Virus record (IMG/VR): IMGVR_UViG_3300037189_025064
Location: 1 to 25,129 of that record
DNA: 25,129 nucleotides
Reading direction: 5' to 3' (one strand)
DNA from: a virus
The notes under the pieces are model-generated. The model was not told where the DNA came from, did not search any database, and saw only the letters and a list, made by a program, of their open reading frames with translations. Shown in pieces: positions 3,285 through 17,400 of this stretch. A program made the position numbers and the translations under genes. Within the stretch, counting starts at the first letter, position 1; each line of letters starts with the position of its first letter.

Positions 3285-3635
3285 ATGGATTTTAATCAAG
3301 TTTTATTTAAAGACAAAACATTCGCTAACCTACTTGAAGATATATACAAGAACGCGAGTCGTAAGGAAAAAGAAATTAAAGCATTAATCGATCAACTGAA
3401 ACCTATGATACAGGAACCAGGTGACGCGATGATGCTTGTTCCTTTGTTAAAAGAATATATGGAATTATCTATTAAGAATGATGACGCCTTAATCAAAATG
3501 GCAGGAATTGTTCAACGCGCTATGTCTAATAGTGGTGATAGTGGTGATGGTAATATGTTAAGTGATAGAGATAAAGAATTATTATTCCAAGAAATTAATA
3601 ATGTATCTATTAAACAAATAGGAAATGGGAGCTGA
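3285..3635 (+). CDS. Hypothetical helical protein, 116 aa
   Basis: I do not recognise the family. The product is predicted almost all helical and strongly charged, for example SRKEKEIKALIDQLKPMI near residues 25-42 and LKEYMELSIKNDDALIKMAG near 55-74. A short Gly/Ser/Asp-rich loop (about residues 81-90) precedes a C-terminal helix. There is no membrane segment or signal peptide. It is the first gene of the hub region, behind a promoter candidate, and its end overlaps the next start by 11 nt. That position suggests a minor virion or assembly protein for the baseplate hub or tail. No cysteines or catalytic motifs are evident. Confidence 0.75.
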   Translation: MDFNQVLFKDKTFANLLEDIYKNASRKEKEIKALIDQLKPMIQEPGDAMMLVPLLKEYMELSIKNDDALIKMAGIVQRAMSNSGDSGDGNMLSDRDKELLFQEINNVSIKQIGNGS

Positions 3636-4692
3636 AAATAGAATAATAACAGGTAATACAACCGCTAATAATAATCAAGTCACTGGACTTGGAGGTAGAT
3701 CTAATCCTACTCCTTCAACTAATACTCAATATGGTAGAGTTATTGAAGTAAACACTAAAGATAGATCTATCAAATATGAATTAGTCACAAATAATCTTGG
3801 CCCATCAGCATCAGATAATAAACGTAAATTTGTTGGAGTAGCTAAAAATATTAATCCTAATCTTACTCGTCTTCCTGTAGTAGATGAACTAGTACCTTTA
3901 ATTAAAGGTCCAACACCTAATATTGGATCTTCAGCTGGACAATTTGATCAAGAAACATATTATGGTTCTCCTATATCTATTCAAGGTACTGTTGATGATA
4001 ATAAAGTACCACAAGATAAAACTTCAACAACAAATAATCCTAATAGTTTAAATAACTATAAAATGAATGAGATAGGAGCTAACTCAAATCCTAATAGCAC
4101 TCCTAATTCAAATCAAAATTCAGAAAGACAAGGTACTGATACTGATGGAATTAATGGAGAATATACCTCTCAATTTATATTCCCTAAAGGATTAATGACA
4201 TTAACTATTGAGTTAAAAGGTAAACCTCCTCAAGTAATAAAAACAGCTTTAGGAATCGCGGAAAGTAATAATATATTAATAAGTATAGTTCAGAATTATA
4301 ATTTAACAATTCCTCAAATGGAGGCTTGGAATGAATTCCAAACATGGATGCAAGGTAAGAAATATAGTGGAAATAAAAGTATGAACACAAAGCCATTTAG
4401 TAAAAATGTTTGGTCTGAATATAAAACTAAAGTCAAAAAAGATTTCTGGGTGACATATACTAGACCTGATAATACTAGTGATGATATAAGAAAAATACAA
4501 GATGCTCTTAAAATATATAGGGCATATCTTATAAATGAATGGAAAACTAAAAAACCACCTTTCAACCCAGGAATAAAACTAAGAGATCTAAAAACAGGTG
4601 TAGTAAGACCTATGGATGTTTCTCTTCCAGATGATGTTAAGAATGTTGAAGAAAATTTTATGAAATGGGCTAAACCAACAACTTATAATTAA
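3625..4692 (+). CDS. Baseplate hub/spike protein with gp5-like OB-fold domain
   Basis: A 355-residue protein. After a flexible Asn/Thr-rich start, residues about 36-125 look like an OB-type beta barrel: strands YGRVIEVN and IKYELV, then LPVVDELVPLIKGPTP and SPISIQGTV. This pattern of short strands around a conserved LxVxDELVPL turn is typical of gp5/VgrG N-terminal OB domains. A low-complexity linker rich in Asn, Ser, Pro and Thr (about 130-175) leads to a helical C-terminal half (about 180-355), including FQTWMQGKKYSG and IYRAYLINEWK, which I cannot name. Unlike T4 gp5, no lysozyme motif is visible; the lytic domains sit in the two following genes instead. The start at 3625 lies inside the previous gene and has AGGAA just upstream, one of the few Shine-Dalgarno-like sites here. 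Confidence 0.55.
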   Translation: MGAENRIITGNTTANNNQVTGLGGRSNPTPSTNTQYGRVIEVNTKDRSIKYELVTNNLGPSASDNKRKFVGVAKNINPNLTRLPVVDELVPLIKGPTPNIGSSAGQFDQETYYGSPISIQGTVDDNKVPQDKTSTTNNPNSLNNYKMNEIGANSNPNSTPNSNQNSERQGTDTDGINGEYTSQFIFPKGLMTLTIELKGKPPQVIKTALGIAESNNILISIVQNYNLTIPQMEAWNEFQTWMQGKKYSGNKSMNTKPFSKNVWSEYKTKVKKDFWVTYTRPDNTSDDIRKIQDALKIYRAYLINEWKTKKPPFNPGIKLRDLKTGVVRPMDVSLPDDVKNVEENFMKWAKPTTYN

Positions 4693-4694
4693 TC

Positions 4695-6587
4695 ATGTCA
4701 AATAAACAATATCTTAGAAGTATTGATGTAGGAGATGCTAGTTTTGAAGGCAGACAATCTAATGGATTAACAGCCAAAACAGATGGTACAACATTATTAT
4801 ATTCTGGTGTAAATAAATCTCAATTAGAACAATTAGAAACACAAACCGATGTAACTAATGTAGCTATAAATGGAAATGTTGGTACTATTGTTGCTATTAT
4901 ACCTGCTGAAAAAAATATAGAATATCCTGAAGGAAATGATAATAAGGAGACAACACAACCTACCACTGATCCAAATAAAATAACAACACCTACAATTAAT
5001 GCTGGAGGATTAAATGGTACTTATAAACCTTTAAATGTTCTATCTCAATCTACTCAAGATTTAATTACTAAGGGTGATGGTCTTGTTTTAGTAAGAGAAA
5101 CTTCTAATTCAACACGTGTCACAGGTACAATGTGGTTTAAAGGACAAGTACTTGGATTTACATGTGAAGATCCTATACGAACCGTAAAAATAGACTCAAA
5201 AACAGCTATACCTTCAGGTCGATTTAATATTAAATTAAGTGATACATCAAATAATCTTTTATTTAGATATAGGGTAAAAGTTCCAAAAGATCCAAATAAT
5301 CCTATTTTAAATTGGAGCGCTAATGGAGTTTTCGCTCGAATTGGAACAACTTCTGATGCTGTTAGTTTAAAAGCTAGTGGTTTAAGCTTTGGTGGTATTA
5401 GAATTCATGGAGGTTGGTCAGAAACATATTCTGCTGGATGTGTTATTTATTCTCCAAAACGTAATAAAGATGGTACTGTTGGTACACCTAAAGTAGATTA
5501 TTGGGAAGAACATAATAAAAAAATAACATTATTAATATTAAATAATAAAATTAATCATATAGATATTGTTCATGAGTTTGGATCAACAACAACAGTAAAT
5601 ATAACTTCAACAACAGTATCTGCTCCTGCTCCAAAAACAACAACTGAAACAGTCTCAACAAAAGATAATAATATTCTTCCACCTTCTCAGGAAATTATAA
5701 TACCACAAGAATCACCTTCTGATGATAATGAAGAAGAAAAAGAGAATTTTACATTTTTAGATGAAACAGGAATTGAATTAGATCCTATAAAAGTATTTAA
5801 TGTTATTGATGTTAAAGATAATGATAATGAAATTATATCAGATGCTGATGTTGCTAAAATTAATCAACAACAAATTATATTAAGTAATGAAGAAAATAAA
5901 TCTAATCCTAAAAAAACAACTCCTACTCCAAAACCAACAGTTAAAAAGGGATCTATATTTAAAATAATACAAAATAATAGTGATTATGGAAACTTAGGAG
6001 ATTTATACTATTGGCCTTCTCCTTTATATAGTCAATCAGACCCAGAATGGGGATCATATAAAAGTGGTGATTTAAAACAGTCTAGTCATGGATGTTGTTA
6101 TAATACTTTATCTATGTTAACAGCTTGGTTTACTCAAGATGCTACAAAAACTCCTAAATGGCATTGGAATACTAAAAAAAATCAATCTGTTTCAGTTTAT
6201 TATGATAGATTTGGAACAGCTGTTAATGGAACTGTTATATTAAAAGAAGCCAATTTAGCATCTGATGTTGATAATATATTAAAAAATAGACCTGTTGGTT
6301 TTGAATGGAAAGGTGGAAAAATATTTAGTGGTTGGGGATGGGATAAAGGATATAATGATTATCATGGTACTATAAAAAGAAGTCCATCTGGAGCAAGCTT
6401 TAAAGGGAAAAAAATAGTAACTATAGGTATAAGCTACACAGCCAGTAAACAACATTGGATGGTTATAGCAGGTAAAAATCAAGATGGTACCTACACTGTA
6501 TTCGACCCAGCAGGAGGAGTTATTAGATATAACCAATCTAAAGAAACCATTGAAGCAGGATTAAGCAGAATTGTTTACATTAAATAA
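4695..6587 (+). CDS. Modular baseplate protein: DUF5675/L,D-transpeptidase-like domain plus C39-like peptidase
   Basis: A 630-residue multidomain protein. Residues 1-98 form a module shared with the next gene. Residues about 128-295 match the DUF5675 pattern, with IPSGRFNI at 172-179 followed by IRIHGG (His238) and SAGCVIYS (Cys249). The His...Cys arrangement resembles L,D-transpeptidases. A Pro/Thr/Ser linker and the acidic segment EEEKENFTFLDETGIELDP (347-365) follow; this segment is also in the paralogue. Residues about 440-630 look like a C39-like papain-fold peptidase: PLYSQSDPEWG (Gln447), SSHGCCYNT (Cys467 or 468 as nucleophile), KQHWMVIAG (His587) and VFDPAGG (Asp604). Probable role: cleavage or remodelling of peptidoglycan peptides by the tail hub during infection, or processing of tail proteins. 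Neither activity is proven, and the virion location is inferred from position between the OB-fold protein and the wedge genes. Confidence 0.75.
   Translation: MSNKQYLRSIDVGDASFEGRQSNGLTAKTDGTTLLYSGVNKSQLEQLETQTDVTNVAINGNVGTIVAIIPAEKNIEYPEGNDNKETTQPTTDPNKITTPTINAGGLNGTYKPLNVLSQSTQDLITKGDGLVLVRETSNSTRVTGTMWFKGQVLGFTCEDPIRTVKIDSKTAIPSGRFNIKLSDTSNNLLFRYRVKVPKDPNNPILNWSANGVFARIGTTSDAVSLKASGLSFGGIRIHGGWSETYSAGCVIYSPKRNKDGTVGTPKVDYWEEHNKKITLLILNNKINHIDIVHEFGSTTTVNITSTTVSAPAPKTTTETVSTKDNNILPPSQEIIIPQESPSDDNEEEKENFTFLDETGIELDPIKVFNVIDVKDNDNEIISDADVAKINQQQIILSNEENKSNPKKTTPTPKPTVKKGSIFKIIQNNSDYGNLGDLYYWPSPLYSQSDPEWGSYKSGDLKQSSHGCCYNTLSMLTAWFTQDATKTPKWHWNTKKNQSVSVYYDRFGTAVNGTVILKEANLASDVDNILKNRPVGFEWKGGKIFSGWGWDKGYNDYHGTIKRSPSGASFKGKKIVTIGISYTASKQHWMVIAGKNQDGTYTVFDPAGGVIRYNQSKETIEAGLSRIVYIK
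4744..4786. repeat. 43-nt direct repeat, copy 1 (pairs with 6646-6688)
   Basis: Forty-three bases are identical to 6646-6688, in the part encoding residues 17-31 of both large paralogues (EGRQSNGLTAKTDG core). It lies in a longer region of clear but imperfect identity. The exact match, including third codon positions, points to recent duplication or gene conversion. Confidence 0.9.
5730..5767. repeat. 38-nt direct repeat, copy 1 (pairs with 7704-7741)
   Basis: Thirty-eight bases are identical to 7704-7741 and encode the acidic linker EEEKENFTFLDE. Flanking sequence in the two genes is unrelated apart from the next few codons (TGIELDP), so this is a conserved junction between otherwise different domains. 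Confidence 0.9.
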
Positions 6588-6596
6588 AATAAAGTC

Positions 6597-8576
6597 ATGC
6601 CAGATAAACAATATCTTAGAAATACTAATGAAGGAGATGCTAGTCTTGAAGGCAGACAATCTAATGGATTAACAGCCAAAACAGATGGATCTACTATTAT
6701 GTATGGTCCTGCCAATCAAGCATCAACAGAACAATTAGAATCTGGAGAAAATATAGACATAAATGGCAATACAGGATCAGTATTTGCTTTAATCCCAGCT
6801 GAAAAAAATATAGATTACACTGAAGGAAACAATAATAAGGAGACAACTCAACCTACCACTGACCCAAACAAAATAACAACTCCTAATAAACCTACAGTTA
6901 AAGGATATAAAACTATTGTAACTGCTGACGCTACAATAACTATACCTAATGGTGTTACAGGTCCAGTGAGTGTATTTGTTTTATATCCTGGCACAACATT
7001 ACCTAATAAACAAATTGGTAAACAATATATGCCTCCATTAGTAAAAAAAGGAATACCTGATTTTTATGAAAAATATGTTATTGTTATACCTAACCAAGAT
7101 TTAACAAAATGGGAAAGTGTTAAAAAAGAATATGAAACCGAATTAAAAAATGCAAATTTATCTGAAAAAAATCTTAGTATAGGTATATTTTCAGGTAGTG
7201 GTAATGATGGTAGAAGTATTCAAAGAGTATTAACTACTTTACCTAATCTTGTTAACCTTATAATAATGGATCCATGGCCTGGGAAAGTTTTTTCTAGTAA
7301 TATTACTAAAGTAAAATCAACAGGTACTAAAGTATATATGATGTATAATACTGGAAATTGGGGTTATTATCCAACTTATCCTCCTTTAATAAAAATTCTA
7401 GTTAAAAATGTTGGGGCTAATGCTACTTCTGTGTCACGTGACCATATGAGTATACCAGCAACGACATTAACTAAATTTAGAACAGAAATTGAAAATAATT
7501 TAGGCTCTACACCAACAATACCTCAATCTCCCACACAAACCCAAAATCAACAGCAAACTCAACAGCAAGATCAACAGCAAACTCAACAGCAAGATCAAAT
7601 ACAAATACAAAATCAAACTGTAGTTTCTACCACACCTGTGACTCCAGAAAGTCCTATTATTCAAGAAGAAAATATTCCTGAAGCGGCTCCATCAACAGAT
7701 GGGGAAGAAGAAAAAGAGAATTTTACATTTTTAGATGAAACTGGAATTGAATTAGATCCAGTACAAATATTTGAGTATACAGTTGGAGATCAAATTGTTA
7801 CACCTTCAGCTCCTGTACAAAATGATTTAGTAGCTTCATATACTCCTGAAGAATATAAAGGATCAACTGAAGTTATTAAATTAAAACCAATTAAAACAAC
7901 TCCAACAAAAGCAACTACACCTACAAAAACAACTACTAAAAGTACTAAAACAGTACTCGCTGAAGGAGTTTTAGTTGGAGCCTTAGGAGATGTTAATCAA
8001 GAAATTAACCTACCAAATCCTATTCCAGGGGCGAAAGGAAAATTACCAGATAAATACCGTGGAAAAATTCCAGTTAAAGAAGTAACATATACCTCTAAAT
8101 TAGTTAGTATTCAAGAAATGATAAAGCTTTTTAAAACTAAGGGTTTAACTGAACAAGAAGCTAGAAATATGTTAACTTTAACAGCATCCGAAGCCGCTAG
8201 AGAGGATAAAAGTCAACCTTATTTTTCAGGATATAATTATAATATATTTGGTATTCAAGCTGAGGCATATTGGACAGCTCAATATAGTGGAGTTAAAATG
8301 AGTAGTTTTATAGCTTATCGTTATATAGCTAAAGATGATTATGGTTTAAGAATATTCGCGGGATTTAATAGTCTTGATGATGCTGTTTCAGCTAAAATTA
8401 TAGCATGTCGAAATAAAGGAATATTAACAGCTACTGATATTGATACTTTTTCAACTTTATATGTAACAAAATGGGTAGGTATAGCAGCTACTCCTGAAGC
8501 TATCAAATATAGAAGATCTATTTATCAATCATGGGGTAATAAGCGTTTTGACCAATATAAAGCTGGTATTTATTAA
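6597..8576 (+). CDS. Modular baseplate protein: alpha/beta-hydrolase-like domain plus FlgJ/GH73-like glucosaminidase
   Basis: A 659-residue paralogue of the preceding protein. Residues 1-96 are the shared N-terminal module. Residues about 105-302 look like an alpha/beta hydrolase: strand VSVFVLYPG, then nucleophile-elbow-like IGIFSGSGN (Ser199/Ser201), strand LIIMDPWPG (Asp225) and late histidine RDHMSIP (His283). Residues about 310-342 are a Gln/Thr hinge containing two tandem QQQTQQQD units. The shared acidic linker EEEKENFTFLDE is at 370-381. Residues about 498-659 resemble FlgJ-type GH73 glucosaminidases: LTLTASEAARE (Glu532 or Glu536 as acid), GYNYNIFGIQAEAYW (545-559) and FAGFNSLDDAVSAK (587-600). 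It probably cuts the glycan strand of peptidoglycan near the tail hub. The esterase-like domain could act on acetylated or acylated surface polymers, but its substrate is unknown. Confidence 0.75.
   Translation: MPDKQYLRNTNEGDASLEGRQSNGLTAKTDGSTIMYGPANQASTEQLESGENIDINGNTGSVFALIPAEKNIDYTEGNNNKETTQPTTDPNKITTPNKPTVKGYKTIVTADATITIPNGVTGPVSVFVLYPGTTLPNKQIGKQYMPPLVKKGIPDFYEKYVIVIPNQDLTKWESVKKEYETELKNANLSEKNLSIGIFSGSGNDGRSIQRVLTTLPNLVNLIIMDPWPGKVFSSNITKVKSTGTKVYMMYNTGNWGYYPTYPPLIKILVKNVGANATSVSRDHMSIPATTLTKFRTEIENNLGSTPTIPQSPTQTQNQQQTQQQDQQQTQQQDQIQIQNQTVVSTTPVTPESPIIQEENIPEAAPSTDGEEEKENFTFLDETGIELDPVQIFEYTVGDQIVTPSAPVQNDLVASYTPEEYKGSTEVIKLKPIKTTPTKATTPTKTTTKSTKTVLAEGVLVGALGDVNQEINLPNPIPGAKGKLPDKYRGKIPVKEVTYTSKLVSIQEMIKLFKTKGLTEQEARNMLTLTASEAAREDKSQPYFSGYNYNIFGIQAEAYWTAQYSGVKMSSFIAYRYIAKDDYGLRIFAGFNSLDDAVSAKIIACRNKGILTATDIDTFSTLYVTKWVGIAATPEAIKYRRSIYQSWGNKRFDQYKAGIY
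6646..6688. repeat. 43-nt direct repeat, copy 2
   Basis: Identical to 4744-4786; see that entry. The two copies are 1,902 nt apart and in the same frame and orientation, so they could recombine to fuse the two genes and delete the intervening enzymatic domains. Confidence 0.9.
7548..7595. repeat. Tandem repeat, two perfect 24-nt units
   Basis: Units 7548-7571 and 7572-7595 are identical and each encodes QQQTQQQD, in the hinge between the esterase-like domain and the acidic linker. The unit length is a multiple of three, so gain or loss by slippage would change hinge length without breaking the frame. Confidence 0.9.
7704..7741. repeat. 38-nt direct repeat, copy 2
   Basis: Identical to 5730-5767; encodes the acidic linker that precedes the C-terminal half of this paralogue. 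Confidence 0.9.
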
Positions 8577-8591
8577 AAATAAAATAAAAAT

Positions 8592-9029
8592 ATGAAAGAT
8601 TTTAAAGGCGAAAAAATATTATTATCTTCTGAACGATTAATATTTAATACAACAACTGATGATATTGAATTTTTAACTAAAAAAATATTCCATATCTCAG
8701 CTGGAGATTCTGTACGTATTGATATAGGACCATTAGGAAGTACTAATTCAGATAATTTATTTGTTATTAACGCTCCTAGAGTTCAATTTGGTATAGCTAC
8801 TAAAGGAAGAGAAGTAGAACCTGTAGTTAAAGGTAAAACTTTAGCTGCTACTTTAAAAGATTTAATGAAAGCTATTGAAAATTATTCAGATGCTGTAGCA
8901 GCATCTGTACCTGAAGCAACACCTATATTACAATTATTTTCAAATAAATTAAAACAAGATTTTAAACTAGTACAAGCAGATCTAGAATCACCAGGAATTG
9001 TTCAATCTAACATAACATATACAATATAA
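8592..9029 (+). CDS. Spike- or baseplate-associated beta-rich protein, 145 aa
   Basis: The N-terminal half (about residues 5-70) consists of short alternating strands: KILLSSERLIFNT, DIEFLTKKIFHIS, SVRIDIG, FVINAPRVQFG. This register, with a polar-hydrophobic SxRxIFN pattern, is typical of beta-prism or beta-helix tips of phage spikes and of gp5/VgrG C-terminal regions. The C-terminal half (about 78-145) is helical, with GKTLAATLKDLMKAIENY. The protein could trimerise on the hub and form or cap the membrane-piercing needle. It sits 15 nt after the glucosaminidase gene and overlaps the next start by one base (TAATG). The family is recognised only by pattern, so the role is an inference from the motif and neighbours. 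Confidence 0.6.
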   Translation: MKDFKGEKILLSSERLIFNTTTDDIEFLTKKIFHISAGDSVRIDIGPLGSTNSDNLFVINAPRVQFGIATKGREVEPVVKGKTLAATLKDLMKAIENYSDAVAASVPEATPILQLFSNKLKQDFKLVQADLESPGIVQSNITYTI

Positions 9030-10192
9030 TGCCAGATACATTCAACACCCAAAACTCTCAATACAAACCACCAACTCCAGGAGCTATTCCTAGTCCTGTA
9101 CCTTTATCAAGTCAAGGACAATCTAGCGTTAGTGGTAGTATAGCTAATATAGGATCCTCTATAAGTGGAAGTTTCTCATCAACTAAAAATCAAGTTAGTG
9201 GTAGTATATCTAATGCTAAGGATAAACTTAATCAATTTAAGAAACAACTTGATACTATTAAAGGAAAACAAAAAGAGCTTGATCCATTTAAAAATTTAAA
9301 TGATCCTAAATCTTTTTTGAAACAGCAAACATTATCTGTTTCTAAAAATCAAGTTATAACTGTTTTAACACCTATAGTATCTCAATTTATTAAAATTGAG
9401 TATATAGCTAAATTACTTATAAAAAAACTAGAAAAACAAACTCGAGAACAAGTAAAAAATAAAGGTACATTAACTGTATCTGGAGGTACATTTACTTTTA
9501 CTCCTTCAAATCCTGGTGATTATTCTATATTTAAAAGTAATTTTGATAGGAAAGTAGCTAATTTAAAAACAACAGTACAAAAATTACAACAAGTAATTAC
9601 CATATTAAATAATATATTAAGAATAATAAACATAGCTTTATCAATTATTCAATTATATATTAAACTAAAATTAGTGCAACTAGGTGTTCAATTAACCTCA
9701 GTTACAGCAGATTTAGCTAGTCCTTCTCCAGCTAAAACTAGTGGTGTTTTACTATCAAATATAACTATTAGTATAATAAAACTTGGGGATGCTAAAGTAA
9801 AAGTAGAAAAATATAAAGCAGGTATAACAATAGCTAAATCTATATTAAGTATTTTAAAAAAAGCATTAACTGATATAAAAATTAAACTAGACCAATTACA
9901 ATTTATAATAGTATCTTCTCCAAGCAATGAAGGTATTCCAGGAGTCTCAGATAGTACATCATTATCTTTAATAGAAAGTATAAATGATGTTCAAACAACA
10001 GCCCCAGAAAATGAAGAATACACAGATGCTGTTGGTAAGTCATATATATTAGAATTAGTGACTTTACCTAATGGTGCTATACAGTATCAAGCGTTAGATT
10101 CATACTCTAAATTTAAAATAACACAAACAGCTCCAAGTAAAATAAAAAATCCACAACAATTATTAGAAGAAATCAAACAAATATTAGGATAA
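9029..10192 (+). CDS. Coiled-coil baseplate/tail structural protein, 387 aa
   Basis: I do not recognise a named family. The first 60 residues are Pro/Ser/Gly-rich and flexible, and include repeated VSGSI motifs (QSSVSGSIANIG and NQVSGSISNAK). Residues about 65-300 are mostly long helices with many Ile/Leu heptads, such as LKTTVQKLQQVITILNNILRI near 183-203. One predicted beta strand pair lies near 147-157 (GTLTVSGGTFTFTP). Hydrophobicity near 190-220 could suggest membrane contact, but basic residues interrupt it. The C-terminal 50 residues include YILELVTLPNGAIQYQALDS and end in helix LLEEIKQILG; this strand-turn-helix ending is seen in phage hub proteins. The context between the spike-like protein and the wedge genes supports a hub or tube-initiator role. 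Confidence 0.65.
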   Translation: MPDTFNTQNSQYKPPTPGAIPSPVPLSSQGQSSVSGSIANIGSSISGSFSSTKNQVSGSISNAKDKLNQFKKQLDTIKGKQKELDPFKNLNDPKSFLKQQTLSVSKNQVITVLTPIVSQFIKIEYIAKLLIKKLEKQTREQVKNKGTLTVSGGTFTFTPSNPGDYSIFKSNFDRKVANLKTTVQKLQQVITILNNILRIINIALSIIQLYIKLKLVQLGVQLTSVTADLASPSPAKTSGVLLSNITISIIKLGDAKVKVEKYKAGITIAKSILSILKKALTDIKIKLDQLQFIIVSSPSNEGIPGVSDSTSLSLIESINDVQTTAPENEEYTDAVGKSYILELVTLPNGAIQYQALDSYSKFKITQTAPSKIKNPQQLLEEIKQILG

Positions 10193-10205
10193 AATATTTA
10201 TAATC

Positions 10206-10673
10206 ATGAAAGCAGATACTTTTATTAAAATTTTACGTAAAGTTATACGTGAAGAAGTACAATTAGTTGTACGTGAAGAATTAGGTCTATTATTAGAAAC
10301 ACCAGAACCTAAAAAACCTATGACAGAAGCTAAAAAACCTGTCATAAAAAATTCATTAGTTGATTCTATTAAACCTTCTAAATCTCAACAACCAATTTCC
10401 TTTACCAACAACAATATATTAAATAATATATTAAATGAAACAGCACATGGAAATGAGTGGCGTTCAATAATTGATGGAACATCACAACAAGCTCCAAACT
10501 TTAGTGCTATGATGGGACAATATGGTGGAGTCTCAGAACCTGTTGTTGTTGAAAGTGTAGATCAAATGTTAGCTAATACAAGACCAGCGGGAGATATCAA
10601 CGCTGTTAAAATTGATGTAGTCCCTGATTTTAGCGCTTTAATGAATAAAATGAAACAAGACGGTAAATTATAA
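10206..10673 (+). CDS. Small virion-associated protein with internal repeat, 155 aa
   Basis: The N-terminal 30 residues form a charged amphipathic helix (FIKILRKVIREEVQLVVREE). A Pro/Lys-rich linker and an Asn-rich stretch with ILNNILNETA (71-80) follow. Two related short motifs occur, PNFSAMMGQ (97-105) and PDFSALMNK (140-148), separated by an extended segment. The rest has little predicted structure, so this may be an adaptor that binds identical sites on a partner with its two copies. The gene lies directly before gp25. Only 13 nt separate it from the previous gene, and that gap holds an ATATTTATA 9-mer ending 3 nt before the ATG. No family is recognised. Confidence 0.7.
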   Translation: MKADTFIKILRKVIREEVQLVVREELGLLLETPEPKKPMTEAKKPVIKNSLVDSIKPSKSQQPISFTNNNILNNILNETAHGNEWRSIIDGTSQQAPNFSAMMGQYGGVSEPVVVESVDQMLANTRPAGDINAVKIDVVPDFSALMNKMKQDGKL

Positions 10674-10675
10674 TA

Positions 10676-11104
10676 ATGGCATATAGGCAAACATATCGAA
10701 TTAATCCTATTGATATAGGACAACCTATGGGAATAGGTGTTAATATTCTATTTAACAATAGTACTGATATTTTTAACACAACATCTACCACACGAGATCA
10801 AATAAAATCAAACCTTATTAATTTTTTATTAACTAATAAAGGTGAAAGAATGTATGATCCTGAGTTTGGTGGTGATCTTAAAAGAGCTATATTTGAACAA
10901 GCTGACAATACTTCTTTTGATACTATAACAGCCAAACTAGAAACAGAGATAGTCAATAATATACCAGGTATTAATTTACAATCAATTTCAGCATCTCCTA
11001 ATCCAGATTTCAATATTGTTACCATAACTATAGTTTATCAAATAAATCAAGAAGATGATAGTTTAGTACTAAATGTAGAAACAAATAATTTAAATACATT
11101 CTAA
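10676..11104 (+). CDS. 25: Baseplate wedge protein gp25 (GPW/gp25 family)
   Basis: A 142-residue protein, close to T4 gp25 (132 residues). It has the family signature: a helix DQIKSNLINFLLTNKGERMY followed by DPEFGGDLKRAIFE (about residues 61-74). A second helix comes next (ITAKLETEIVNNIPGI), then a strand pair ending NIVTITIVYQI. This is the GPW/gp25 (EIPR) fold found in T4 gp25, phage P2 GpW and type VI TssE, which forms the inner ring of the baseplate wedge and nucleates the sheath. It starts 2 nt after the previous stop and is followed after 2 nt by gp6, the same order as in T4-like genomes. Confidence 0.93.
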   Translation: MAYRQTYRINPIDIGQPMGIGVNILFNNSTDIFNTTSTTRDQIKSNLINFLLTNKGERMYDPEFGGDLKRAIFEQADNTSFDTITAKLETEIVNNIPGINLQSISASPNPDFNIVTITIVYQINQEDDSLVLNVETNNLNTF

Positions 11105-11106
11105 AA

Positions 11107-12984
11107 ATGGCGAATACTCCAGATATAAAATATTTTAGTAAAGATTTCTCTTCGTTAAAGCAAAATCTAATTGATTATGCTAGAACATATTTCCAAAATA
11201 CGTACATGGATTTTAGTCCATCTTCTCCAGGTAATATGTTTATTGAAATGGCGGCTTATGTTGGTGATGTTTTGAGTTTTTATACAGATACTCAATTACA
11301 AGAAACATTACTTTTATATGCCCAAGAAAGAAAAAATATAATAGCTCTTGCTTATGCTTTAGGATATAGACCTAAAGTAACAATAGCATCATCTGTCATA
11401 TTAGATATCTACCAGCAAATACCAAGTACTGGTACTCCTAATTATTCACCAGATTATAGATACACATTTCAAATTCCTCAAAATACTGTTATAGCATCAA
11501 AATCAAATCCAAGTGTTACTTTCATAACTGAAGAATTAGTTGATTTTAAATTTTCATCTTCATTTGATCCAACATTAGTGACTATATACCAATATGATGG
11601 ATCCGGAAATCCACAATTTTATTTACTTAAAAAACAAGTAAAAGCATATTCTGGTACTATAAAAACAATAGATTTTAATTTCGGAAGTCCAACTCAATTT
11701 CCTATATCTACCATCAATGATGATAATATAATACAAATATTAAGTGTTGTTGATAGTGATGGTAATAATTGGTATGAAGTACCTTATTTAGCTCAAGATA
11801 CAATATTTGATGAAACATTAAATATCGCTATTAATGAACCTAACTATTATGATGAGAATAATACAGCTAGATTTTTATTGCGCTTAAAAAAAGTACCAAG
11901 ACGCTTCGCTACTCGTTTTGAAGATGACAACACATTAACTTTAGAATTTGGTAGTGGAGTAGTATCAACTCCAGATGAATTAATTATTCCAAATCCAGAT
12001 AATGTAGGTATGGGATTAGTTGATGGTATAAGTAAATTAAATCAATCTTATGACCCATCAAATTTTATGTACACTAATGAGTATGGTATAGCACCATCTA
12101 ATACAACATTAACTGTAAATTATATTGTCGGTGGAGGAATAAGTACAAATTTACCATCTAATGATATTAATGTTAGCACAACTATTGGAAATGATGCTTT
12201 AATTAACTCATATAATTTAAATAATACATTAATAACAGCGTTAAGAGATACAATTAAAGCTAACAATCCATCTCCATCATTTGGTGGAGGTCCTGGTGAA
12301 ACAACAGAACAAATTCGTTTACAAGCTTTAGCTAATTTTCCAACTCAAAATAGAAATGTTACTAAAGCTGATTATTTAGTTAGAGCTTTATCTATGCCTG
12401 CTAAGTTCGGTTACATAAGTAAAGCTTATGTAGCACAAGATTATTTAGTAGCTAATGATACTGACCGACAGAATTTTATAAATAATAATCCATTAGCTAT
12501 ATCTATTTATGTTTTATCAACAGACATTAATAATAAAATTACAACATTATCCAATACAATAAAGCAAAATTTAAAAACATATTTAGGATATTATAAAATG
12601 GCTAGTGATGCTATTTTGATTAAAGATGCGTATTATATTAATATTAAAGTTAATTTTGACATTACTTTAACACCATCATATAATGCTCAAGAAGTAATAA
12701 CTAGATGTACTACAACTTTACAAAATTATTTTGATATTGATAAGTGGCAAATTAACCAACCTATTATATACTCAGATGTTTATAATTTATTAAGTAATAC
12801 AGCTGGAGTTAGATCAGTTATTAATGTTGATATTCAAAATTTAGCTGGTGGTAATTATTCACAATATTCTTATGATATTCAAAGTGCTACTAAACAGGGA
12901 GTTATATATCCATCAATAGATCCAATGATATTTGAAGTAAGATATCCTAACACAGATATATATGGACGTGTAGTTACTTATTAA
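11107..12984 (+). CDS. 6: Baseplate wedge protein gp6 (baseplate J-like)
   Basis: A 625-residue protein, similar in size to T4 gp6 (660). The N-terminus DIKYFSKDFSSLKQNLIDYARTYF leads to DFSPSSPGNMFIEMAAYVGDVLSFYTD (about residues 36-62). This matches the gp6/baseplate-J family, whose members begin with a helical clamp followed by a GxxxIE(M/L)xAyvgd motif. Residues about 416-445 read NVTKADYLVRALSMPAKFGYISKAYV, the conserved baseplate-J core. The C-terminal domain ends with a beta-rich IYSDVYNLLSNTAGVRSVINVDI segment. Gp6 dimers form the baseplate iris that changes shape on contraction. Its position directly after gp25 supports the call. Confidence 0.93.
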   Translation: MANTPDIKYFSKDFSSLKQNLIDYARTYFQNTYMDFSPSSPGNMFIEMAAYVGDVLSFYTDTQLQETLLLYAQERKNIIALAYALGYRPKVTIASSVILDIYQQIPSTGTPNYSPDYRYTFQIPQNTVIASKSNPSVTFITEELVDFKFSSSFDPTLVTIYQYDGSGNPQFYLLKKQVKAYSGTIKTIDFNFGSPTQFPISTINDDNIIQILSVVDSDGNNWYEVPYLAQDTIFDETLNIAINEPNYYDENNTARFLLRLKKVPRRFATRFEDDNTLTLEFGSGVVSTPDELIIPNPDNVGMGLVDGISKLNQSYDPSNFMYTNEYGIAPSNTTLTVNYIVGGGISTNLPSNDINVSTTIGNDALINSYNLNNTLITALRDTIKANNPSPSFGGGPGETTEQIRLQALANFPTQNRNVTKADYLVRALSMPAKFGYISKAYVAQDYLVANDTDRQNFINNNPLAISIYVLSTDINNKITTLSNTIKQNLKTYLGYYKMASDAILIKDAYYINIKVNFDITLTPSYNAQEVITRCTTTLQNYFDIDKWQINQPIIYSDVYNLLSNTAGVRSVINVDIQNLAGGNYSQYSYDIQSATKQGVIYPSIDPMIFEVRYPNTDIYGRVVTY

Positions 12985-13001
12985 AATTTTATAATTGCTT
13001 G

Positions 13002-13010
13002 ATATTTATA
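13002..13010 (+). promoter_or_regulatory. Candidate phage late promoter (ATATTTATA)
   Basis: The 9-mer is in the 46-nt gap after gp6, followed by CTAGA. Its end is 20 nt from the ATG at 13031. It is the same core as in the gaps at 3263, 20818 and 23576. It could open a separate unit for the large adhesive proteins that follow. Confidence 0.42.
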
Positions 13011-13030
13011 CTAGACTAATACTAATATAA

Positions 13031-14122
13031 ATGGGTGTTTATAAAATATTTCCATCACAGGACACAACTATCTACACAGATTATAATACTCTCAATGCAG
13101 GGTTAGATTCGATTTTAGACTTATCTAAAAATCCTCCTAATCTTTATGTGTCTTCTTCTACTAGCCGGGTGTTAATCCAATTTGATAACACTGATATAAC
13201 AGATGCTATAACTAAATCAGGCGTTAATTTTACAGCCTCTTTAAAATTATATAACGCCGCAGTTGATGGTATTCCTACAGGATTTAATTTAATTGTTAAT
13301 CCAATTTATGAAAGTTGGGATATGGGTACAGGACGTTTTAATAATATTCCTGAGACTTATGATGGTTGTAGTTGGAAATATAGAAAAGCTAATCAATCAA
13401 CATCATGGACAACATCTGGATTTCCTTCTAATACAACAGGTAGTTTTATCTCTAATAATATTGGTGGAGCTAATTGGTACTCTAATTATACAGTTAGTCA
13501 ATCATTTACATTTTTTTCAACTAAAGATCTTAATTTTGATGTGACATCAATAGTAACTGCTTGGACATCTAGTGTTATACCAAATAATGGATTTATAATT
13601 CGTAATACTGGATCTATTGAGTTTAATTCTAATTATAACTATACTTTTAATTTCTTTTCAAGAGATACTAATACAATTTATCCTCCATGTTTGGAATTTA
13701 AATGGAAGGATAGTACATTCAATTCAGGATCTACATCTTATGTGAGTGATAATAATATATTAGTATCATTATCAAATAATAAAAATATATTTTATGATAA
13801 TGAATATGTAAAATTTAGAGTGTACGCTAAAGATAGATACCCAGCTAGAACATATACTACTAGTTCTTTACAAAGTTATAATAAATTATTACCAACTACA
13901 ACATATTATTCAATAATTGATTTAAATTCAAATTTAAGAGTTATTGATTTTGATAATATCGCTACTCAATTAAGTAATGACTCAATAAGTAGTTATTTTA
14001 TGTTATATATGAATGGGTTAGAACCAGATCGTTATTATAAAATACAAATCAAATCAGTGATTGATGGTGGAACTTATATATATGATGATGATTTTTATTT
14101 TAAAGTAAACCAAACTGTTTAA
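13031..14122 (+). CDS. Virion protein with DNRLRE-like N-terminal domain, 363 aa
   Basis: Residues 1-226 follow the DNRLRE pattern: FPSQDTTIYTDYNTLNAG (7-24), SRVLIQFD (45-52), the conserved FDVTSIVTAW (169-178), GFIIRN (187-192) and SRDTNTIYPPCLEFKW (210-225). DNRLRE-type beta-sandwiches occur in bacterial surface proteins, where they are linked to carbohydrate binding or cell-surface attachment. Residues about 230-363 form another beta-rich region ending DDDFYFKVNQ. The gene follows gp6 and a promoter candidate and precedes two structural genes by 2-nt gaps. In a T4-like layout this is the place of gp7, gp8 and fibre-socket proteins. The role as an outer-wedge or adhesive protein is inferred; the domain call is based on motif recall. 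Confidence 0.65.
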   Translation: MGVYKIFPSQDTTIYTDYNTLNAGLDSILDLSKNPPNLYVSSSTSRVLIQFDNTDITDAITKSGVNFTASLKLYNAAVDGIPTGFNLIVNPIYESWDMGTGRFNNIPETYDGCSWKYRKANQSTSWTTSGFPSNTTGSFISNNIGGANWYSNYTVSQSFTFFSTKDLNFDVTSIVTAWTSSVIPNNGFIIRNTGSIEFNSNYNYTFNFFSRDTNTIYPPCLEFKWKDSTFNSGSTSYVSDNNILVSLSNNKNIFYDNEYVKFRVYAKDRYPARTYTTSSLQSYNKLLPTTTYYSIIDLNSNLRVIDFDNIATQLSNDSISSYFMLYMNGLEPDRYYKIQIKSVIDGGTYIYDDDFYFKVNQTV

Positions 14123-14124
14123 TT

Positions 14125-14475
14125 ATGAGTGAGATAGTTACATTACAAAAAACTATATATAGTAACAATATAAATAATGTTATTGATACTAGTTTTAGTC
14201 AATTAATCCCTCCATCAGAAACCCAAATTCCAGCGGTTCCTGATACAACAGTTGATCAATTTTTTGAACAATATAATATTTTATTTTATGAAATACCACC
14301 ATCTGGATCAGATAACTCTCATTTAGGTTTAGCTAACAGAAGTTTAGAATATCTAGGATTATCTTTAGATGATCTTCAAATAGAAATAGAATATTTAAGA
14401 CAAGAAAATGTTGAATTAAAAAATCAAATATTCCAGGCTTCTAAAATCAATCCTGGTGAACTACAAGAATTATAA
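14125..14475 (+). CDS. Small baseplate-region protein with C-terminal coiled coil, 116 aa
   Basis: The first 60 residues lack strong predicted structure and are rich in Pro, Thr and Ile (SQLIPPSETQIPAVPD). Residues 79-104 form a short coiled coil, LSLDDLQIEIEYLRQENVELKNQIF, with leucines, isoleucines and a valine at heptad positions. This may trimerise or dimerise the protein or bind a neighbouring fibre. It is flanked by 2-nt gaps, so it is translated together with the proteins on both sides. I do not recognise a family; a small connector between the DNRLRE-like protein and the giant protein is a guess from position. Confidence 0.75.
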   Translation: MSEIVTLQKTIYSNNINNVIDTSFSQLIPPSETQIPAVPDTTVDQFFEQYNILFYEIPPSGSDNSHLGLANRSLEYLGLSLDDLQIEIEYLRQENVELKNQIFQASKINPGELQEL

Positions 14476-14477
14476 TT

Positions 14478-17400
14478 ATGGCTACTAATGTAACAGCATT
14501 AAATAATGTAACAAACATATTACCTGGTTCAGTATCATCTCTAGTTTTGACTAATAATCAAACTAGAAAGTATGGTGTGGCTGGTGACTATGTTGAAATG
14601 AATGTATATGATCTAAATAATACTTTTATATTTCAAATTGTTCCTTTTTTAAATTTTAAAATTCCAGGAAATTATCCAGCTGAAACAGAAACATATACTC
14701 AAGAATTAGATTTCTCTCCAGAGGATGACGCTCAACAAAATAGTTTAGGATTTGGTAGTTATATATTTGAATATAATATTTTACGACCTAAGGTTATAAA
14801 TGATGTTAATAAGATTTTCTTCATCAAAGAAATATCAGCTAATAGAACTGAACTTAGATTAGGTACTAACTCCTCAGCAACAACATTAACTAATGGTGCT
14901 TTATCATTTATAAATGAATTTCAATCTTTAGGATATTTTAAAGAATTTTATATAAATTTAGGTAATGGTATTTTATTACCATGTATTAATATAGCGTTAG
15001 ATGAGAATACAGATCCACCAACTTTATTAATTAAACTTTTAAATCCATTACCTGGTAATTTTAATACTTTAGCAACTCTTAATATAGTTGATAAAATATC
15101 AGATAGTAAAGCATTCCAAGTAGGTATAACTCCTGATGTTATAAAACCAACATATGCTTCATTACGTAGCGCTAATTTTGATATAGAATTAGATAATGTT
15201 AGAGCTAATCCAACTCAATATTTTAGTTTTAATCAAATTATAGATTCAAAATCAAGTGTTAATTCACAACTACAATCTTTATTAGGATTAGTTAGTTCAT
15301 CTCAATTTAGTATAAATATTGATTATACTGATTTATCTAATTTTATTCATTATTCATCAGCTGTTAATAGATTAGATGGATTTAAATATAAACTTAATTT
15401 AATTGAGACTTATACAGCGGCTAGTTCTTCAGCAGCTTCTTTCTCAACAATAGCTGCTCAACAAGATGCTCAAAATTATAAAAACCAATTAAATAATGTT
15501 ATTCAAAGTTTTGATGGATATGAGAAATTTCTTTATTATGAATCATCTTCTTTTACTTGGCCTAAACAAAACTCAGTAAAACCATATATAAATTACGCTT
15601 CAACTTCTTCACAAGGGTTATTATGGTATAGCAGCAGTTATGACTCAGCTTCTTTATATGATATAAATAATCAAAATTATTTAATATACGCTTTACCAAC
15701 ATATATAAATGAAAATTCATCTAATAATAACTTATTTAAGTATATTTCTTCTATGGGTTTAATGTTTGATGAGATTTGGTTATATACTAAAGCTATAACT
15801 GATTTATATCAATCAAAAAATAATTTAACTAAAGGTATATCTAAAGATTTAGTATATTTTGCTCTTCAATCAATGGGAGTAAATGTATATCCTGATCAAG
15901 ATGGAGAAAATGTATTTCAATATTTATATGGAGTTACTCCTGATGGAAAATATCTTCCTAATACAGGATCATATGAGACTTTAGTAACAGCTTCTCAATA
16001 CTCTATGCCTGGTCAAGATCAGGAAAAAGGTATTTATAAACGTTTATATCATAATTTACCTTTATTACTTAAATCTAAAGGTACTAATAGATTTATTCAA
16101 TATTTAAATACTATATTTGGTATTCCAACAACAATAATGGGATATACTGAATATGGTGGTGTAGATAAATCTACAGCTACTACAGAATATGAATTTGATA
16201 GATTCACTTATGGTTTAAATACTATTAGCAATAATACAATAACTATACCTTGGAATTACACATCACAAAGTTTTAATAGGACTGGATATAATGATATAGT
16301 TCCTAATGGTATTGAACTTAGATTTAAAGCATTCACTACATCCTCAAATATTTTATCATCAACATACGCTACTCAATCTTTATTTTATAATGGATCTAAC
16401 TATTCATTAAATTTATTATACACAAATACAGGATCAAATAATTCTATTTACTCAGGTAGTGTTGGTGATTTTGGATACTTACAATTTAAATTAGGAACTA
16501 GTACTATTATTACTCCAACAATTCCTATTTTCACAACTGGATCAGATGGAGAAACATCTTGGTATAGTATTTTAGTGCAAAGAAGTAATCCTAATTTAAG
16601 AATAGGAGATGTTAGTACTTCTCAAACATATACTGTTTATGTTAAAAATAATATTTGGGGAAAAGTAGGACATGTCGCTAGCGCTAGTTTAACAACTACT
16701 ACAGAAAATACTTCCTGGTACACTCAAGGAACAACACTATCTATTGGTGGAGGTACATATCCATTTTCTGGATCAGTGCAAGAATTAAGATTATGGTCTA
16801 ATTTTATATCAGAATCTAAATTTAATATTCATGTCTTAAATCCTGAATCAATTGAAGGAAATATAACAGGATCTTCATTTAATGATTTAGCAACTAGGTT
16901 TACATTAGGAAATAATTTATACACATATAACCATAGTATAACTACAAAATTATATTCAACACATCCAGACCAAAATACTCAAATACTAACCGCTTCATTT
17001 TCAAATTTTTTAAATCAAAATAATTACTCATCATTTACTGAGACATATTATACTAATGTAGCCAACTCGGGATACGCAAATCCAGTAACAGATAAGGTGA
17101 GAATAATGAGTGGAAGTACATATGGTACTCAATTATTACCTAATAAGAGTATTGAAGTACAATCTTTATTACCAACAACAAAAGATATACACTTACTTGA
17201 CGCTAGTCTATCTCCACAAGATGAAATTGATAGAGATATTATAGCTAGTTTAGGTGCCACTTACACTATAGATGATTATATTGGTGATCCATCAGGTAAT
17301 AGTTTAATTAATTTAAATAAATTAAGATTTGATCATTTTAAAAAATATAAAAAACCATTCAACTATAAGGATTATATCCGATTAATTGAATTTTTCCACA

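Follow-up and report, generated by a model that had tools for sequence, protein, structure and literature searches.

The OB-fold gene, the beta-tip gene and the genes between them probably encode, together, the cell-puncturing device of a T4-related contractile tail, in a split form that carries several enzymes. The sequence analysed (the window) comprises the 25,129 bases of viral record IMGVR_UViG_3300037189_025064, given as one strand, in which two adjacent open reading frames (ORFs) encode hub paralogues, named here A and B, that combine a common N-terminal module (N-module) with different enzyme-like domains in two positions, slot 1 and slot 2. They belong to a same-strand run of genes (3625-4692, A, B, 8592-9029, 9029-10192, 10206-10673, gp25 and gp6) in which the following features were assigned:

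3625-4692, plus strand: OB part of a split gp5-type spike, 355 aa (HMM of unsplit homologues, hhalign)
4695-6587, plus strand: hub paralogue A, with N-module, DUF5675 in slot 1, linker motif and a papain-like/C39-like peptidase in slot 2
4695-5006, plus strand: N-module of A, with the motif EGRQSNG at residue 18 (alignment; weak match to the spike segment EGRxGNSIR)
5088-5462, plus strand: DUF5675 (L,D-transpeptidase-like) domain, slot 1 of A, with conserved H238 and C249 (Pfam PF18925, alignment)
5679-5798, plus strand: acidic linker motif of A, FTFLDETG at residue 352 (alignment)
5973-6584, plus strand: predicted papain-like/C39-like cysteine peptidase, slot 2 of A, candidate catalytic residues C467, H587 and D604 (AlphaFold2, VIA)
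6597-8576, plus strand: hub paralogue B, with N-module, a hydrolase-like domain in slot 1, linker motif and a GH73-like domain in slot 2
6597-6887, plus strand: N-module of B (~68% identity to A over the first 100 residues)
6879-7520, plus strand: alpha/beta-hydrolase-like domain (unproven), slot 1 of B, candidate residues S199 or S201, D225 and H283 (low-confidence model)
7653-7772, plus strand: acidic linker motif of B, FTFLDETG at residue 376 (alignment)
7959-8573, plus strand: GH73 (glucosaminidase)-like domain, slot 2 of B, candidate E532 and NIFGIQ at 549 (hhalign)
8592-9029, plus strand: beta-tip part of the split spike, 145 aa, with INAPRVQFG (HMM of unsplit spikes, hhalign)
10676-11104, plus strand: baseplate wedge gp25 (Pfam GPW_gp25, E 4e-9)
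11107-12984, plus strand: baseplate wedge gp6 (phrog_219, E 2e-20)

The ORFs of A (630 aa) and B (659 aa) span exactly the positions listed and, because both are 100% identical in a second assembly of the same phage, the 102 kb contig UViG_3300032330_002177, they are not assembly artefacts. The two proteins have in common their N-terminal ~100 aa (66-69% identity) and an acidic 40-residue linker in which 28/40 positions (70%) are identical (A 329-368 versus B 353-392), and since no other part of A and B aligns, their remaining domains are unrelated. A first-pass annotation of this DNA had described two adjacent paralogues of precisely this kind, and the ORFs, the identities and the second assembly agree with that description. 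When A, B and the spike gene were each compared singly by tblastn with 50,697 phage records no match was obtained, and an NCBIfam search returned nothing on either hub protein. In a tree of N-modules the two copies of this phage group together (100/100), the pairs of two related loci (L024 and L032) fall in a separate clade and that of L051 in another. Pairs are thus sisters within genomes, so that carriers, as we call the N-module proteins, were duplicated more than once, a pattern that gene conversion could mimic.

The nature of the genes flanking A and B became apparent from relatives collected through gp6, a search that retrieved 80 related viral contigs together with Flavobacterium phage immuto, Microcystis phage Mel-JY01 and a huge uncultured phage. 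In distant relatives (immuto gp116, YP_010114567; Mel-JY01; L071, L080, L082, L091 and L097) a single protein of ~380-500 aa, the unsplit spike, stands in place of the several genes of the window. The upstream (OB) gene family matches the N-terminal third of these unsplit spikes in profile comparisons (hhalign, 97.2%, E 4e-11) and the family of 8592-9029 matches their C-terminal third (99.1%, E 4e-19); likewise, an HMM built from the unsplit spikes finds both genes of the window, with E 3e-11 for 3625-4692 (model positions 59-167) and E 5e-14 for 8592-9029 (positions 283-400). The N-terminal OB domain of a gp5-type spike (~residues 1-158 of the 3625-4692 product) and its C-terminal beta tip/trimerisation segment are both present here, in separate genes. 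The N-module is likely the middle EGRxGNSIR segment of the ancestral spike, a match that is specific but weak: its best alignment is with the GDxxxEGRxGxS segment of the unsplit spikes (column 188) at an HHalign probability of 9-26%, and it scores 25.1, or 25.8 with the near subset, where none of 300 column shuffles exceeds 19.5. Judged from sequence, three loci are intermediates between the unsplit and the split spike (INTERMEDIATES): in L076 a gene that combines OB and EGR is followed by one for the tip, L073 has an OB+EGR gene, a free M15_3 peptidase gene and a tip gene, and L067 has OB, EGR and a C39-like peptidase fused in one gene with the tip separate. In another phage (L105), the OB part, a 'baseplate hub subunit and tail lysozyme' protein (phrog_430, E 1e-11), is fused to a homologue of the peptidase of A.

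Lytic functions had earlier been proposed to be moved off the OB-fold spike protein and onto the hub, a proposal that the gene anatomy contradicts. The gene at 3625-4692 is only the OB part and 8592-9029 is the beta tip, with the cassettes between them, and in L067 and L105 a peptidase is fused to the spike itself. The T4 order of OB, enzyme and tip is kept as gene order and the lytic domains have therefore not been relocated; rather, the spike has been divided up around the enzymes. T4 gp5 consists of OB, lysozyme and beta-helix parts, with a maturation cleavage between the last two at S351/A352 (PMC3004832), and resembles the present system both in the order OB, lytic domain, beta tip and in that cleavage makes the tip a separate part of the mature T4 protein. 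The differences are that here the OB part, the enzyme carrier and the tip each have a gene of their own, that the carrier is present in duplicate and offers up to two enzyme slots, and that the cargo is without a T4-type lysozyme. Phage immuto, whose gp6 is 46% identical to that of the window, has in gp116 an unsplit homologue of the OB and tip genes, but as one continuous spike protein without a lytic cassette. The spikes of L067 and L105 share with our locus a homologous peptidase placed at the spike, but there it is fused directly to the OB protein without a separate carrier.

The OB and tip genes themselves show further variation. Residues ~185-355 of the 3625-4692 product form a variable C-terminal extension without a family match that is replaced or lost among close relatives and is perhaps another cargo or adaptor site. 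Two tandem OB-spike genes precede the carriers in L057 (2079-3540) and L061 (1566-3456), which means that the OB gene has been duplicated too. Extra domains are found on some OB genes (L035, 2057-3139; L061, 2497-3456), and the tip gene of L035 (4327-5436) is fused to a hydrolase-like domain resembling that in L041.

Both the OB and the tip gene are visible in 28 loci (27 relatives and this phage), and in 28/28 of them one or two N-module genes lie between the two. The carriers have a common layout of N-module, optional slot 1, a Pro/Thr-rich linker that ends in the acidic motif (centred on F-x-F-L-(D/E/P)) and slot 2, and all of their Pfam-recognised wall hydrolases lie C-terminal of this motif. 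According to Pfam, slot 2 holds SLT in L018 and in the second hub of L024, VanY in L035, C39_2 in L036, GH108 in L040 and Phage_lysozyme2 in L046 (E 4.5e-22), with GH19 in L022 and DUF2272 in L051 below the Pfam cut-off; by motif, L039, L041, L055, L058 and L061 end in M15-like domains (S-x-H-x-x-G-x-x-x-D ... H-x-H). Slot 1 holds DUF5675 in A, a hydrolase-like domain in B and L024, and an SGNH-like domain in L024 and L038 (GDS..., GTND/GTNG; read by eye), and a family search found none for the 'X' domain of slot 1 in L055-L064. The contents of the slots are combined in different ways: L024 has a hydrolase-like domain of the B type (51% identical) and a C39 domain of the A type in one protein, L038 joins an SGNH-like to a C39 domain, L099 has no slot 1 and a C39 domain 58% identical to that of A, and L015 has no slot 1 and GH73. 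Separately, L099 has a gene for a GH19-like chitinase/lysozyme (10052-10645) directly 3' of gp6.

Since such domain families are also used by endolysins, A and B might be taken for ordinary lysis enzymes encoded by chance in the baseplate region. We regard this as very improbable, as the domains are attached to a module whose place, in every one of the 28 loci, is exclusively between the OB gene and the tip gene, and the tandem paralogues sit within a co-directional baseplate operon. What the sequences present is a predicted wall-degrading domain fused to what appears to be a virion module, and we read the locus as a split, duplicated and swappable form of virion-associated lysin.

Exchange of the cargo has occurred recently. 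Between L015 and L018 a segment has been exchanged, 712 bases (GH73) in L015 corresponding to 586 unrelated bases (SLT) in L018, whereas the flanks share 95.4% identity on the left (5,461 bases) and 98.3% on the right (5,219 bases). The left junction lies at carrier residue 159, just past the acidic motif. In L020, compared with L015, a 333-base C-terminal extension of the OB gene is lost. In an all-against-all scan of the loci, large two-sided replacements between similar phages (flanks of 85-98% identity) fell almost exclusively in the zone of the OB extension and the carrier, 4.2 to 2.6 kb upstream of gp6; one at +7.9 kb was an exception, as were those in which L088 took part. L021 and L025 differ by a two-sided replacement at +7.9 to +8.4 kb relative to gp6, which lies apparently within the counterpart of the gene that in the window encodes a 1,878-aa protein downstream of gp6 (14478-20114). 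The proposal of a cassette system, in which unrelated enzyme-like domains are placed on a common scaffold, is borne out by the shuffled domains of L024 and by the cargo swap between L015 and L018. It is possible, and we put it forward tentatively, that the split gp5 spike works as a cartridge system, taking interchangeable carriers that compete or stack at one site and give mixed-enzyme, possibly heterotrimeric, spikes, in which slot 1 would strip wall decorations, slot 2 would cut the backbone and the acidic motif would serve both as docking and as recombination point.

The domain assignments in A are the firmer ones. DUF5675 is recognised by Pfam (PF18925) with E 7.6e-7 and 29.4 bits against a cut-off of 26.7, and H238 and C249 of its IHxGx...GC motif, which we take to be the pair expected for an L,D-transpeptidase-like active site, are invariant in an alignment with 21 viral DUF5675 proteins; the DUF5675 assignment made at first sight thus stands. 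Because this part of A was folded without homologues it is not resolved in the model; a full-length MAFFT alignment with DUF5675 fragments was misaligned and not used for folding. A sequence search of the PDB with the DUF5675 profile gave nothing convincing. Slot 2 of A, modelled with AlphaFold2 from a 14-row alignment (core pLDDT 78-91), has a papain-like fold, its best Foldseek matches being papain-like toxins, the pseudomurein endoisopeptidase PeiR and staphopain, and VIA giving Z 10-11.8 with a papain-like toxin, staphopain, the C39 domains of PCAT1/ComA and PeiR. In the peptidase alignment C467 and H587 are invariant and D604 is D except for one N, so that the modelled fold and the candidate Cys and His together point to a papain-like/C39-like cysteine peptidase. 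The domain stays below the Pfam cut-off for Peptidase_C39/C39_2 (12.4 versus 22 bits), which among its homologues only L036 passes, and it is for this reason named papain-like and C39-like; with structure matches at Z about 11, the C39-like peptidase of the earlier reading is upheld at the level of fold.

These same matches raise the question of whether the carriers are delivery vehicles for effectors acting inside or on the cell, comparable to the 'evolved' spike effectors of type VI secretion systems, with the papain-like and DUF5675/Tlde1-like domains as toxins or host-takeover proteins. In favour of this, the best Foldseek matches of the peptidase of A are bacterial toxins and not wall enzymes, namely CdiA-CT papain-like toxins and a toxin/immunity pair, also papain-like, with a molecule entered as DUF4150-domain protein, and a weak Tlde1 match overlaps DUF5675. 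We nevertheless consider it unlikely, as slot 2 of the relatives is filled from wall-degradation families (SLT, VanY, GH108, Phage_lysozyme2 and C39_2), the peptidase fold matches PeiR at about equal Z, and a homologous peptidase is fused to the OB spike in L105.

In B, the C-terminal domain has no Pfam match, PF01832 included, and is for that reason called 'GH73-like' and not a filed member of the family. Its profile aligns with that of E. coli FlgJ and ten phage glucosaminidase domains (hhalign, 71.5%, E 3.6e-5) with a score of 37.3, the best of 200 shuffles reaching 27.8, and the E532 region falls on the catalytic LES and NIFGIQ on NNLFGIK. Profile similarity, a candidate catalytic Glu and the N-FG(I) motif are thus all found in slot 2, and the GH73-like glucosaminidase suggested at the outset receives moderate support from the profile-profile comparison, with PF01832 itself giving no match. 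The hubB model has a mean pLDDT of 35.6, which leaves the GH73 call dependent on the profile comparison and the alpha/beta-hydrolase call unproven. The N-terminal domain of this low-confidence model is an alternating alpha/beta stretch, and for slot 1 the three top-ranking VIA matches comprise esterases and a dienelactone hydrolase at Z 6.3-6.6, values below the trusted level, with Rossmann folds close behind. S199, common to five homologues, D225 and H283 are candidate catalytic residues. These matches are suggestive of an alpha/beta-hydrolase-like domain, as had been proposed, although the low Z and the Rossmann folds mixed in with the esterases make this a weak call. Of the glycan, peptide and ester bonds named as possible targets, the ester would depend on this weakest of the domain calls. 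Foldseek returned nothing below E 0.04 for the hubB model, and PDB sequence searches with the GH73-like and hydrolase-like profiles gave nothing convincing. A periplasmic binding protein matched by the hydrolase-like profile (E 0.0013) was judged to reflect chance or a shared Rossmann-like pattern, and matches of hubB to L,D-asparaginase and G6PDH were rejected as common Rossmann-type arrangements.

The absence of a canonical GxSxG in the hydrolase-like domain and the departure of this DUF5675 copy from the consensus IHAGN..DT.GC would fit structural or adhesion proteins with inactive enzyme relics that serve as spacers or sugar binders. This we think improbable, given that the candidate catalytic residues are kept (H238/C249, C467/H587/D604 and E532) and that the domains have repeatedly given way to other wall hydrolases of the active type, a sign that activity is selected for.

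Taking the locus as a split cell-puncturing device, an ancestral gp5-type spike (OB, EGRxGNSIR segment, beta tip) would have been broken into an OB gene, N-module genes and a tip gene, with the N-module protein as a carrier plugged into the spike between the OB part and the tip. Each carrier would hold up to two enzyme cassettes around the conserved acidic motif, slot 1 with DUF5675, esterase- or SGNH-like domains or others and slot 2 with a peptidoglycan hydrolase. Most likely, going by the anatomy, the OB trimer docks on the hub, the N-modules are stacked beneath it and the tip protein finishes the needle, the enzymes being suspended at its side like the lysozyme domain of T4. On contraction the spike would then be driven across the outer membrane, after which the peptidase, the glucosaminidase and possibly the transpeptidase and esterase domains would breach the wall locally. 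A and B may occupy the same site in mixed trimers, be stacked, or be used in different virions.

Modular virion-associated lysins are well known. According to a 2017 review most have one lytic domain, two-domain forms come only from phages of Gram-positive bacteria, two different such lysins occur only in PRD1 and phi11, and gp44 of phi11 consists of an endopeptidase and an SGNH hydrolase (PMC5380687). The present carriers resemble lysins of the phi11 gp44/gp49 type in that a virion protein has two catalytic domains, here predicted, and that a phage encodes several such proteins, but whereas two-domain lysins are known from Gram-positive hosts, the host here is probably Gram-negative. Our search of the open-licence literature turned up no account of a gp5-type spike divided into an OB part, exchangeable carriers and a tip. 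A split that lets the enzyme part alone be duplicated or exchanged would explain how phages track wall chemistry across hosts with the rest of the baseplate unchanged, and the exchange of cargo suggests that such phages retool their drilling into bacteria. As L015 and L018 combine the same phage backbone with a different enzyme, this idea is directly testable, and carrier loci may be regarded as a source of new wall-cutting domains.

A Bacteroidota envelope as the barrier to be crossed fits part of the evidence. The gp6 protein is 46% identical to that of Flavobacterium phage immuto, and an SD-like sequence precedes only 2/22 genes; because Bacteroidota usually lack SD sequences (PMC9723584), these two observations make a Bacteroidota host likely, even though the gp6 of Microcystis phage Mel-JY01 is equally close (45.6%). 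A gp6 scan of 84,980 bacterial and archaeal genomes gave one match, a contig of a marine MAG.

The 102 kb contig (G001) of this phage contains other genes of interest. In its locus L009 a GroEL-like 548-aa ORF (12721-14367) stands beside an Hsp20-like ORF (11736-12176), the two spanning 11736-14367, and these read as phage-borne chaperones. Also in L009, a 448-aa beta-helix-like protein with a signal peptide (18408-19754), and so secreted, is possibly a polysaccharide-degrading enzyme. At 23824-38103 of G001 (L010) many ORFs resembling glycosyltransferases, methyltransferases and aminotransferases follow one another, which suggests a sugar-building cluster of the phage.
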